DNA from: Planctomycetota bacterium | Lineage (GTDB): Bacteria > Planctomycetota > Phycisphaerae > Phycisphaerales > SM1A02 | Direction of reading: 5' to 3' | NCBI GenBank assembly: GCA_003671055.1 | Contig: QWPV01000007.1 | Coordinates: 1 to 64,000, forward strand | Length of the DNA: 64,000 bases | Part shown: one piece after another, positions 2,115 through 45,763 of the stretch | Numbering within the stretch: position 1 is the stretch's first letter | Layout of the letters: every line of letters begins with the position of its first letter | The notes under the pieces: model-generated | What the model was told of the DNA's origin: nothing | Database searches by the model: none | What the model saw: only the letters and a program-made list of their open reading frames with translations | Position numbers and translations under genes: made by a program

Positions 2115-3197
2115 GTGACTATCGCTGTACCTGCATCCCTCGAACGCATCCTCGCAGCCATGGCAGACGAAGATGCTGCGCTTGAACTCGAAATGCAACT
2201 CGAGTCGACGCATACGGATCATCGGCGTATGAGTGCCATTGCGAAGCGTCGACGCACGCTTGCAACGTCACTCACCCCGTGGCGCGCGTTGACGCAACTG
2301 ACTGTTGATCTCGAGGGACTCACGCAACTTGAAGCCGCAGGCGATCGTGAATTTGCGCGACTTGCGATGGCTGAGCGCGTTGAACTTCTCGCCAAGCAAG
2401 AGGAAATCATTCGCGCACTACGCCGGCAGATCGCAACGAGTGAAGAGTCAAGTATCTCGAGCATCGTGCTTGAAGTTCGCGCGGGAGTGGGCGGCCACGA
2501 AGCAGCGCTGTTTGCAGGCGAAATGTTCGAGATGTATCGCGCGTTTGCCACTGCACGCGGTTGGAAATTTGAAGTACTCGAAGTGAAACCCGGCGACGCG
2601 GGCGGAACTACGCAGGCTATCGCATCGATTGACGGCGACGGCGTCTACGCCGCGCTCGCGTTCGAAGGCGGCACGCATCAAGTGAAGCGCGTGCCTGCAA
2701 CCGAAGCACAAGGACGCGTGCATACGTCTACTGCAACCGTTGCAATTCTCGCGGAGCCCGAAGAAGTGGAATCGCAAGTTGATCCTGAAGAAGTGCGAGA
2801 AATTCTCACGACCGCGCAGGGACCTGGCGGACAGAATGTGAACAAGGTCGCGACATGCGTGCACCTCATTCACATGCCAACGAAGATCGAAGTTCGGATG
2901 CAAGAGACGCGCAGCCAAGGGCAGAATCGCGAGAAGGCATGGCGATTGCTCCGCGCTCGTGTCTATGAAGGGCGACGCGCGGAAGCCGCAGCAAAGCGAA
3001 GCTCCGAACGGAAGTCAATCATCGGTTCAGGCGGTCGCGCGGAGAAAGTTCGCACGTATCGATGGAAAGAATCTGTGGTCACCGATCACCGCATAGAAAT
3101 GCAATTCGCGCTCACCGCAGTGATGTCAGGTCGACTCGATGAGATGCTCAACGCGTTGCAAGAGCACGAAGTTGACCTTCGGCTTGAAAGCATGTGA
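2115..3197 (+). CDS. prfA: Peptide chain release factor 1
   Basis: The 360-residue product is a class I release factor that recognises UAA/UAG and triggers peptidyl-tRNA hydrolysis. The codon-reading motif is PAT (residues 194-196, in KRVPATEAQG), the PxT form of RF1 rather than the SPF of RF2. The catalytic GGQ is at 238-240 within AQGPGGQNVNKVAT. The C-terminal GSGGRAEKVRTY and VTDHRI segments are RF1 hallmarks. The start is GTG at 2115; the first ATG (residue 16) would remove part of the N-terminal helix. The final residues end 17 bases from the convergent dnaE. The context around GGQ (GPGGQNVNKV, not GAGGQHVN) is shared with the RF2 encoded at 44647-45763. Confidence 0.95.
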   Translation: MTIAVPASLERILAAMADEDAALELEMQLESTHTDHRRMSAIAKRRRTLATSLTPWRALTQLTVDLEGLTQLEAAGDREFARLAMAERVELLAKQEEIIRALRRQIATSEESSISSIVLEVRAGVGGHEAALFAGEMFEMYRAFATARGWKFEVLEVKPGDAGGTTQAIASIDGDGVYAALAFEGGTHQVKRVPATEAQGRVHTSTATVAILAEPEEVESQVDPEEVREILTTAQGPGGQNVNKVATCVHLIHMPTKIEVRMQETRSQGQNREKAWRLLRARVYEGRRAEAAAKRSSERKSIIGSGGRAEKVRTYRWKESVVTDHRIEMQFALTAVMSGRLDEMLNALQEHEVDLRLESM

Positions 3198-41900: not shown

Positions 41901-43061
41901 ATGGCTCGGAAAAGATCAGACATCGTGGACGCTGCACACTCTGGGGTTTACCACTGCATTTCTCGTTGTGTGCGCAGAGAGTCGCTGCTCATCGACCCGA
42001 AGCGCAGGGCGTTGATTGCCGCGCGGCTCGAATTTCTTGTGCAGCATTTTGCGATCGATGTATTGGCGTTTTGCGCGATGGAAAACCACCTTCACTTACT
42101 GCTGAGGACCCGACCGGAGGTCGTCGCGGCATGGTCTGATTATGAGGTTGCCCTCCGACGGGTGGCGCTCATCGCGAGTCACCGTATCCATCAGAAAGGC
42201 ACAAATACGGACGCGCAAGCTGCGTTGGAACTGGAAGTTGCGATGTTGATGAAAAGCCCCGAGCGCTTGCGTACTGCCCGAAGTGATCTCTCAAGCCTTA
42301 GTTTCTTTCACAAAATCCTGAAGGAACCGTGCGCAAAAAAATGGAATCGAGAGGACGGGGTCACGGGACATTTTTGGGAGGGTCGATTCAAGTCTCTGAG
42401 AGTGCTTGATCGACGAGCTCTCGAGACTGTCGCGACTTACGTTGAACTGAACGAGATTCATGCAGGTGTCGCAACATCGATTCCATCGAGCATCATGAGC
42501 TCAGCGCGAATCCAGTGGCAGCGACTCTGCGATGGCGTGAAGCGCGCCTGCATCGACGGTGCTGCGACACAGGATGATCCACGCAAGCGGCTGCTCGAAC
42601 TTTGCTGGGAACCTGTGTTTCCTTGCAAAACGAGGTGCAGCGATGAAAGCCATAGCGACACAATTCCATCAACACCTACTGAAGGAAACCCAGTCTCGAC
42701 GCGAAGTCTGCTCCAACATCTTTACCGTGTTGACCAAGCTGGGCGTTGCGCTCGGCCCGACAAGGCAGCGTGGATTCGAGAGTCGGAGCCAGATGCAGTG
42801 GCAGACGCGATCGCATGTGCGCATGCGGCATTGTTGCGAGGATCGCATGCAGCCCAGTTCGCCGCGCACTCTCTTGCGAGATGGTGGAGCGAGTTGCAAG
42901 AAGAGCGCTCGTCACAGTTGCACCCGCATTCGATCGAAGACTGTGCGTTATCCATCGTCAGCGCGACGAGAGGGAGTTGCTATGGAAGCAAAGAATCCGT
43001 CGCGCGCGAAGCAGCTCGTCGTGGGCAACATCGCATGCTGCCCGTGTGGAGCAGCGTGTAG
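41901..43061 (+). CDS. REP-associated tyrosine transposase (RAYT, Y1/HUH type)
   Basis: The 386-residue product is an HUH single-strand transposase. It opens with HSGVYHCISRCVRRESLLID, has the metal-binding histidine pair in CAMENHLHLLLRT (HLH), FFHKILKEPCAKKWNREDGV, GHFWEGRFKSLRVLD, and the catalytic Tyr in TYVELNEIHAGV. These proteins cleave and join short single-stranded repeats (REP sequences). The C-terminal half has the TGRxxRxDK-like segment (LYRVDQAGRCARPDKAAWI) found in planctomycete relatives. The frame has no stop, so it is probably intact. ATG 41901 is chosen; the first 10 residues are consistent with the family start. Confidence 0.93.
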   Translation: MARKRSDIVDAAHSGVYHCISRCVRRESLLIDPKRRALIAARLEFLVQHFAIDVLAFCAMENHLHLLLRTRPEVVAAWSDYEVALRRVALIASHRIHQKGTNTDAQAALELEVAMLMKSPERLRTARSDLSSLSFFHKILKEPCAKKWNREDGVTGHFWEGRFKSLRVLDRRALETVATYVELNEIHAGVATSIPSSIMSSARIQWQRLCDGVKRACIDGAATQDDPRKRLLELCWEPVFPCKTRCSDESHSDTIPSTPTEGNPVSTRSLLQHLYRVDQAGRCARPDKAAWIRESEPDAVADAIACAHAALLRGSHAAQFAAHSLARWWSELQEERSSQLHPHSIEDCALSIVSATRGSCYGSKESVAREAARRGQHRMLPVWSSV

Positions 43062-43344: not shown

Positions 43345-44583
43345 TCAGCGCAGTGATGCGACCCATGTGCGCAAGCGTTCAACACCATTCGTGATGTTTG
43401 CTTCGGTGCACGCGAAGGAGAGGCGGATGTTGCCGCGGGCGCATTCGCCGAAGTCTTCGCCAGGCACGACTGCGACGTGGGCTTCTTCGAGCAGAGCGTC
43501 TGCGAAGGATTGCGCGCTGGTGATCTTGGTGGCTTGTGGTGAAGTCTTGCCGAAGTGGGCGCTTACATCGGGGAATGCGTAGAAGGCGGCGTTTGGAGCG
43601 ACGCTGCGAATGTCAGCCACTGTTGCGAGTGCCTCGTGCATGAGCACGGCGCGAGTTGCGAATCGTGCGCGCATTGTTTCCACGCTGTCTGCGCTGTTGG
43701 TGAGCGCTTCGACGATTGCGGGATAGAAGAAACTCGGGATCGAGTTTGTCATCTGTCCTTGCAACTTGATGAGCTCTTTCGCCATCGCGAGTGGCGCGGC
43801 AAGGTATCCCACTCGCCAACCTGTCATCGCGTAGGACTTACTCAAGCCGTTCACGGTGATCGTGCGATGGCGCAGTGCGTCGAATGAACCTGGCGAGAAG
43901 TGCGTGAGCCCTGGCGCGATCTCGGGATAGATCAACTTCTCGTAGATCTCGTCGCTGATCACAACGATCTTTTCGTGCTTGCTCAGTTCGTCGCACAACG
44001 CACGCACTTCGACTGCGGGATACGCGATGCCACATGGATTCGAGGGTGAATTCCAGACGATGCCGACAGTCTTCGCGTTGATCGATGCTGCGAGTTGCGA
44101 CGGTGTGATGCGGAATCCGTTCTCCACAGCACCCGCAATCTCGATGCACTTCGCACCAGCAAGTTCGATGAGCGGCTTGTACGACACCCATGCTGGTGAT
44201 GGCAGCAGAACTTCATCACCCCGACCCGGCTCAACGATCGCCTGCAGCGCCATGTAGATCGCGTGCTTCGCGCCAGCAGTGATCGTCACTTGATCAAATG
44301 CTGTCGGAACTCCATTCTCACGCGTCAATTTCGCAGCGATCGCTTCGCGCGCAGACTTCTCGCCCGCTGTCGGTGCGTACTTCGTCATGCCTTTTTCGAG
44401 CGCGGTAATCGCTGCTTGCTTGATGTTCGCGGGCGTGTCGAAATCCGGTTCGCCCATTGCAAACGCGACGACATCATGGCCTTTCGCTTTGGCTGCCACG
44501 ACTTTCGCACCGACGGCGAGTGTTGCGGACTCGGCCATCGAAGCGATTCTTGACGAGACAAACATGGCGGTCGGTGCACGCAT
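43345..44583 (-). CDS. Class I pyridoxal-phosphate aminotransferase (aspartate aminotransferase-like)
   Basis: The product of about 412 residues from ATG 44583 (MRAPTAMFVSSRIASM) has AFAMGEPDFDTPANIKQAAI, YAPTAGEKSAREAIA, NSPSNPCGI, the NAD-like VVISDEIYEKLIY, the PLP lysine in NGLSKSYAMTGWRVGYLAAP and the arginine in NIRLSFACTEANI. It is of the AspC I-gamma type, so aspartate or related amino acids are likely substrates. The frame is open to 44865, but that part overlaps the divergent prfB start, so I reject it. ATG 44637 is an alternative. Confidence 0.92.
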   Translation of the reverse strand: MRAPTAMFVSSRIASMAESATLAVGAKVVAAKAKGHDVVAFAMGEPDFDTPANIKQAAITALEKGMTKYAPTAGEKSAREAIAAKLTRENGVPTAFDQVTITAGAKHAIYMALQAIVEPGRGDEVLLPSPAWVSYKPLIELAGAKCIEIAGAVENGFRITPSQLAASINAKTVGIVWNSPSNPCGIAYPAVEVRALCDELSKHEKIVVISDEIYEKLIYPEIAPGLTHFSPGSFDALRHRTITVNGLSKSYAMTGWRVGYLAAPLAMAKELIKLQGQMTNSIPSFFYPAIVEALTNSADSVETMRARFATRAVLMHEALATVADIRSVAPNAAFYAFPDVSAHFGKTSPQATKITSAQSFADALLEEAHVAVVPGEDFGECARGNIRLSFACTEANITNGVERLRTWVASLR

Positions 44584-44646
44584 CGCGGGAAAGGTAGCGG
44601 GAAATGTACCCTCGGTAGCGGCAGTTTCCGCTAGCATTCGCGACCC

Positions 44647-45763
44647 ATGCACTTTGACGCACACCAGCCCATTCTCAATGATCTTGAGGCGCGGATATTG
44701 ACGATCCGCGACTCTCTTTAACTTCGACGAGAAGTCTGCACGACGGAAGATGCTCAACGACCGGCTCAGTGACGAGAACTTCTGGAGCAACCAGAAGGAG
44801 GCGCAAAAAACAATCGATGCATTGAAGGTCGTGCGTGCGCAGATTGAGCCGCTCGAACAAGTCATGCGTACATTTGAAGACGCGCAGGTCGGTTACGAAC
44901 TCGCGAAAGAAGGCAACGATAAAGCGCTCTTGAAGGAAGTCGATGAGTCGCTCTTCAATTTGCTCGCGTTTATGGACAAAGTCGAGCAGCAGTCGCTGCT
45001 TGGTGCCAAGCACGATCATCGCAATTGCTTCTTCATCATCCAAGCAGGCGCGGGCGGTACTGAAGCCGAAGATTGGGGGGGCATGCTTGAACGCATGTAC
45101 CTCTACTTCTTTGAAGAGATGGGATGGAAATACGAAGAGCTCCATCGCAACGCGGGCGCGGAAGTTGGCGTCTCTGAGGTTGGCTATCGCATCACGGGTT
45201 TGTTTGCGTACGGCTATCTCAGTTGCGAACGCGGCGCGCATCGACTTGCGCGTGTGTCGCCTTTCAATGCAGAAGGAAAACGGCAAACAAGTTTCGCGAC
45301 TGTTGACGTGACGCCAGAGTTTGAAGAGACCGATCTTGAAATCCCTGAGAAGGATGTCGAAATCACGCCCTTTGTGCGCGCGAGTGGTCCTGGTGGCCAA
45401 AACGTGAACAAGGTCGCGAGTGCGATTCGACTCACGCACATTCCTACGGGAATTCAAGTGGTTGCGAGTACGTTCCGCGAGCAGCCACAGAATCGCAAGC
45501 AGGCGTTTACCGTGCTGCGCGCGAAACTTGAACAACTCGAAGAAGACCGTCGCGCTGCGGAAATTAGCGCAGCCACCGGCGGCAAGGTGACGCGCGACTG
45601 GGGCAACCAGATTCGCAGTTACGTGTTCTACGACAACCGTGTGAAGGATCACCGCACCGGCCATGAAGTGGGTAACCCGATGACGGTGCTCAACGGCGCG
45701 GTGTGGGGATTCATTGATGCAGAGTTGAAGCGACGACGCACCGAGCGCGACCTCAAGCTGTAG
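44647..45763 (+). CDS. prfB: Peptide chain release factor 2, expressed by +1 frameshift
   Basis: The gene is read in two frames: 44647-44718 and 44720-45763 (T44719 skipped), giving about 371 residues. The first part MHFDAHQPILNDLEARILTI ends RDSL and meets a stop, TAA at 44719-44721. Shifting +1 after CTT gives NFDEKSARRKMLNDRLSDEN, the exact continuation expected from E. coli RF2. RF2 identity is shown by SPF in RVSPFNAEGKRQTSF and by GGQ in SGPGGQNVNKVAS. The shift site CTT TAA C has UAA instead of the usual UGA, and no AGGGGG-type internal Shine-Dalgarno lies before it. RF2 terminates at UAA and UGA. Without the shift only MLNDRLSDEN onward (ATG 44750) would be made. Confidence 0.93.
44716..44722 (+). 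promoter_or_regulatory. Programmed +1 frameshift site of prfB (CTT TAA C)
   Basis: The zero frame reads CTT (44716-44718), TAA (44719-44721), then C; peptidyl tRNA-Leu on CTT can slip to TTT. In most bacteria the site is CTT TGA C with an SD-like AGGGGG just upstream. Here the stop is TAA and the preceding bases (CGCGACTCT) are not SD-like. Confidence 0.75.

Follow-up and report, generated by a model that had tools for sequence, protein, structure and literature searches.

The +1 frameshift in prfB, the gene of release factor 2 (RF2), is the textbook case in which mRNA-rRNA pairing stimulates a shift. Its shift cassette has been described as close to invariant among bacteria. In Escherichia coli, this cassette reads AGGGGG UAU CUU UGA C. 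A survey of prfB in 12,753 genomes collected 8,164 motifs, of which 98.6% had TGA, 1.4% had TAA and none had TAG as the shift stop; its authors concluded that no clade had fixed TAA. UAA is read by both RF1 and RF2 (PMC12421855). A stable hairpin upstream of a shift site can reform behind the ribosome and stimulates +1 frameshifting in yeast (Cho et al. and the group of Chang; PMC3639245, PMC6321510). Engineered upstream hairpins with a 12 bp stem and a UGCG loop were used in reporters (PMC6321510, PMC3639245). When such a hairpin was placed before CUUUGA, with the E-site codon between them, it reached about 60% of the stimulation of the Shine-Dalgarno (SD) sequence in an E. coli 70S system, and only without RF2 (PMC6321510). 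In Flavobacterium johnsoniae, the shift was removed without fitness cost (PMC8710568). A literature search, which did not extend to the classic 2002 survey of RF2 sites (Baranov), found no natural upstream hairpin at an RF2 shift.

The window analyzed here, a stretch of 64,000 nucleotides, belongs to a planctomycete of the order Phycisphaerales whose genome is a 2.85 Mb draft in 100 contigs, and many of its relatives come from lakes. Its prfB is encoded on the plus strand. The zero-frame leader ORF (MHFDAHQPILNDLEARILTIRDSL*; 44648–44721) begins with ATG 44648, a start kept at −69 in 114 of 117 relatives, and runs through TCT (44713–44715) and CTT (44716–44718) into TAA (44719–44721), after which comes C 44722. 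The RF2 body (P0001; 44720–45763, plus strand; 347 aa, stop TAG; PF00472 match of 114.6 bits) lies in the +1 frame relative to the leader, and is identified as RF2 by its SPF motif (RVSPFNAEGK) and its GGQ motif (GPGGQNVNK). An early in-frame stop, the slippery CTT T and a main ORF in +1 are all present, and the codons after the shift, read from the sequence, are AAC TTC GAC GAG AAG. An earlier sequence-only reading of this DNA had deduced that a +1 shift is needed at CTT TAA C (44716–44722, plus strand). The frames are as it read them, and the shift has the identical location in 129 of 137 related loci, always at CTT T(A/G)A, the other eight being six in-frame prfB genes and two loci cut by a contig end. 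The base after the shift stop is C in 115 of 115 distinct order-level sites. In the window, the stop followed by this C is readable by RF2 (TAA-C); it is not the RF2-specific TGA, as TAA is also read by RF1.

The RF1 gene prfA is present in the same window (2115–3197, plus strand; PF00472 match of 106.6 bits); it has the PAT motif of RF1 and is intact, with no internal frameshift seen. Its terminal stop is TGA, which is read by RF2, and the terminal stop of prfB (44648–45763) is TAG, which is read by RF1. The latter varies even inside the genus, and a search for a link between it and the identity of the shift stop found none. On the minus strand, an aminotransferase-like gene (43345–44865) is divergent from prfB; the start of its longest ORF overlaps prfB, so translation probably begins further inside the ORF, at about 44582 or 44637. 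An ORF resembling REP-associated or IS200-type (Y1) transposases (41901–43061) lies near the prfB region.

By itself, TAA at the shift was already known as a rare variant; in the order of the window it is common. The sequence-only reading had proposed a survey of relatives for TAA versus TGA and for an internal SD. Among 115 distinct sites from the order and its near relatives, the shift stop was TAA in 68, TGA in 47 and TAG in none, so that TAA makes up 59% of the distinct order sites sampled, spread over several clades. It is fixed, for example, in all four genomes of the genus of the window and in clades of 12, 9 and 7, and the RF2 tree requires no fewer than 10 changes from one of the two stops to the other. 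Outside the order TGA prevails (89 of 95 distinct sites), the few TAA there including order members that were fetched in the set. In that set TAA was commoner where GGGA is missing from the site (5/26 versus 1/69; Fisher p = 0.005, with kinship ignored and a few order members included), a difference to which no weight is given here. No TAG was found among 229 sites; TAG would also alter the next amino acid. It had also been argued that UAA would make the usual RF2 logic fail or weaken. The weakening is to be expected, in that RF1 also reads UAA, and the failure is not: RF2 reads UAA, and therefore feedback should be weaker, not absent.

The other half of that survey concerned the SD. This genome has an intact 16S tail (GGATCACCTCCTTT), with which the window site forms a duplex at only +0.3 kcal/mol; nothing near AGGGGG stands 3 nt before CTT, in agreement with the earlier remark that an SD-like AGGGGG is missing before the shift. 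SD pairing was absent from all 78 distinct order sites (duplex energies of 0.3 to 0.6 kcal/mol). The E. coli leader, with AGGGGGTATCTTTGAC, served as the yardstick, and its SD value alone was used. Among the other planctomycetes examined, most combine SD-like pairing with weaker stems.

A candidate stem-loop (44690–44710, plus strand) seems to stand in the place of the SD. Its 5' arm CGCGGAU (44690–44696, −26 to −20 from CTT) and its 3' arm AUCCGCG (44704–44710, −12 to −6) enclose a variable loop of 7 nt, AUUGACG (44697–44703), and the 3' arm overlaps the position at which other bacteria have their internal SD. Some different control had been suspected from the letters of the window, a suspicion that this structure would bear out, although the hairpin itself had been missed. 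RNA folding gives −10.8 kcal/mol for the window, and the median is −10.4 over the 78 distinct order sites and −10.4 at TAA and at TGA sites alike; within the order, a test showed no association of TAA with hairpin stability. One member of the genus (L008) has a single stem mismatch and folds at −9.0 kcal/mol. The stem as claimed consists of the seven inner pairs and, within the order, of G-C at −28/−4. These two bases (G 44688 and C 44712) are invariant there (G-C in 78 of 78 distinct order sites) and may pair across a G.A mismatch (44689/44711), which would carry the helix up to the E-site TCT; the pair is lost in part of the wider class. Outer GAG/CUC pairs were rejected as part of the stem, being lost in many sequences.

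Over the 30 nt before the shift site, synonymous positions are frozen: the codon is GAG in 94/94, GCG in 116/117, CGG in 115/117, ATC in 99/102, CGC in 106/117 and GAC in 117/117. The AC of the GAC codon (−6 to −4; AC at 44711–44712) is invariant in 173 of 173 distinct sites. The loop codons and the codons flanking the frozen blocks vary freely, and the arms do not. The spacer codon, which occupies the E site while CTT is in the P site, is TCT in 100 of 117 relatives and otherwise TCG or TCC. Right after the shift (44723–44725), Tyr is encoded by TAC in 80 of the 81 relatives that have Tyr, and frozen codons thus reach slightly past the shift; at this place the window encodes Phe (TTC).

A covariance model was built from order sequences, and the genomes of the class were then searched with it (n = 248). 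The motif was present in 198 of them, nearly always in one copy per genome, and all 100 of the 100 matches fetched sit in front of RF2. The spacing from stem to CTT was constant in all sites extracted. In many families the arms read CCCGGAU/AUCCGGG, that is, a double change at −25/−7, and such changes often leave both encoded amino acids as they were (GCG to GCC, Ala; CGC to CGG, Arg). Among 52 distinct sequences, the pair −25/−7 is G-C in 24, C-G in 20, A-U in 2, U-A in 2, G-U in 2, U-G in 1 and unpaired in 1, and the pair −22/−10 is G-C in 37, A-U in 7, C-G in 3, G-U in 2 and unpaired in 3; such pairing counts are biased upward in the class loci L190–L289, which were chosen with a stem-containing model. 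The order loci, which came from a comparison by protein similarity, are free of this bias. Cells changed on both sides numbered 35, against 11.3 ± 2.2 after shuffling and at most 10 in slid controls, and the covariation score was 0.299 versus 0.108; the order-only count is weak and the class-wide set is decisive. On the RF2 tree, at least 6 state changes are required at −25/−7 and at least 8 at −22/−10, and one family alone (f11) contains G-C, C-G, A-U and G-U. Compared with synonymous recodings, stem stability had a median z of −2.1 in the order and −2.3 in the class, and of −0.24 in ten genes without shift; in ten relatives with in-frame prfB the motif is absent and there is no excess stem stability. 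Neither rRNA pairing nor a DNA-binding site would explain such covariation. Within this sample, which consists mostly of draft genomes from one phylum, the comparison shows that base-pairing selection has conserved the stem-loop, at fixed spacing directly before CTT T(A/G)A C, through most of the class, and that it is found in prfB genes that require the shift. With much of the stem invariant, selection on sequence could account for part of the conservation. Two class members carry second, more distant RF2-like genes of about 35% identity (G108:C309:8200-9168 and G074:C59:2238-3176). In the class member L366 (G129:C3:1485-2514), prfB is split mid-gene into two overlapping frames, which reflects either a misassembly or another change of frame.

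We infer from these comparisons that the hairpin stimulates the shift, and prfB of the window is very probably an autoregulatory +1 frameshift gene with a hairpin as its stimulator instead of an SD. Once the ribosome has passed, the stem would refold in the mRNA exit region, where its 3' arm would take the position of the SD:anti-SD helix of other bacteria. The refolded stem may then destabilize pairing in the E and P sites, and peptidyl-tRNA-Leu would slip from CUU to UUU with the stop codon waiting in the A site. Low release-factor activity would lead to more shifting and to more RF2. At UAA, RF1 or RF2 could terminate the leader peptide; since both factors read UAA, the switch at UAA-C should sense the sum of RF1 and RF2, and its RF2-specific feedback should be weaker than at UGA. 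Counting against this scheme, the stem is short and its 3' arm is partly inside the ribosome when the stop is in the A site. On a wider scale, most of the class probably uses an mRNA hairpin for the RF2 shift, and the order would do so without mRNA-rRNA pairing and, once released from the SD, would drift between UGA (sensing RF2) and UAA (sensing RF1 plus RF2).

Several other explanations have to be weighed against this hairpin-stimulated switch. The shift at UAA sites might be constitutive or a neutral relic without feedback, and the reading of UAA by RF1 as well as RF2, the repeated TAA/TGA switching in the order, which could mean weak selection on stop identity, and the dispensability of the shift in F. 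johnsoniae would all fit. We nevertheless consider it unlikely, as the stem, the CTT and the following C are equally conserved at TAA and TGA sites, UAA is still read by RF2, and none of the 229 sites has TAG, even if the absence of TAG is blurred by its effect on the next amino acid. The stem could also be genuine yet have a function other than the shift, such as mRNA stability, pausing, start-site accessibility or transcription attenuation, which would suit a GC-rich element so close to the start codon (about 40 nt). The fixed distance to CTT, the nearly always single location in prfB, the lack of the motif in the ten no-shift relatives and the absence of a T run after the stem speak against such a role and make it improbable. 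A search of Rfam gave no match near the shift site, neither at the gathering score nor at E ≤ 1.

An unrecognized SD-like element could still drive the shift by rRNA pairing, with the hairpin incidental. Outside the order of the window, the form of the stem with C-G at −25/−7 also contains GGGA (−4.0 kcal/mol); the two occur together, and therefore the two signals are inseparable in those families. Where shifting class members have a poor stem, SD-like pairing (−3.0 to −6.2 kcal/mol) tends to be present. This explanation is very improbable for the window, because SD-like pairing is missing from all 78 order sites and the stem is kept through double changes while GGGA is absent; pairing kept without GGGA in the order is the best evidence that selection there sees the stem and not rRNA pairing. 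In family f87, outside the class (L176, L177, L182, L183, L189), a partial stem and GGGA occur together at shift sites, which may represent a state intermediate between SD-type and hairpin-type sites. Finally, a sequencing error, a pseudogene or an internal start would make the frameshift unnecessary, and the assembly is indeed a draft in many contigs. The same site with the same TAA occurs in three other members of the genus, and it is therefore not a sequencing or assembly error; most related loci shift in place and the leader peptide is conserved. An internal start at ATG 44750 is unsupported, as this codon is mostly Glu in relatives and the peptide between the shift and ATG 44750 belongs to the conserved RF2 N-terminus. 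Comparison with relatives thus already refutes this explanation, which retains next to no probability.

If the SD has been swapped for a hairpin, the class would offer a natural parallel to the synthetic result that any exit-side duplex can push +1 slippage, and the mechanism (duplex formation versus anti-SD pairing itself) would thereby become directly testable. The frequent UAA in the order also provides natural site pairs for weighing RF2-specific sensing. Rare TAA at prfB and synthetic hairpins replacing the SD in vitro were known before, and what is added here is a natural hairpin candidate.

Compared with E. coli prfB, the site in the window has the same gene, the same protein position, the slip from CTT to TTT, an RF2-readable stop followed by C and a 3-nt spacer codon, but it lacks an SD-like sequence, has a putative stem-loop in its place and uses UAA as the stop. 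The prfB TAA sites reported earlier share CTTTAA in place of CTTTGA, but they are scattered and not clade-fixed, whereas TAA in this order is frequent and fixed in several clades (PMC12421855). In prfB of Bacteroidia, the shift is likewise kept where SD use is atypical; F. johnsoniae, however, retains a perfect SD, AGGAGG (PMC8710568), and the sampled Phycisphaerales sites have none. The synthetic hairpins likewise have a stem directly 5' of the E-site codon at a CUUUGA-type site; they act in cis without rRNA pairing, and the same is proposed for the planctomycete stem. Those stems were engineered (PMC6321510, PMC3639245), while the planctomycete stem is natural, shorter, class-wide and located inside the RF2 coding sequence. 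Because the layout of the elements is the same, the planctomycete stem is presumably the natural counterpart of the synthetic hairpins.
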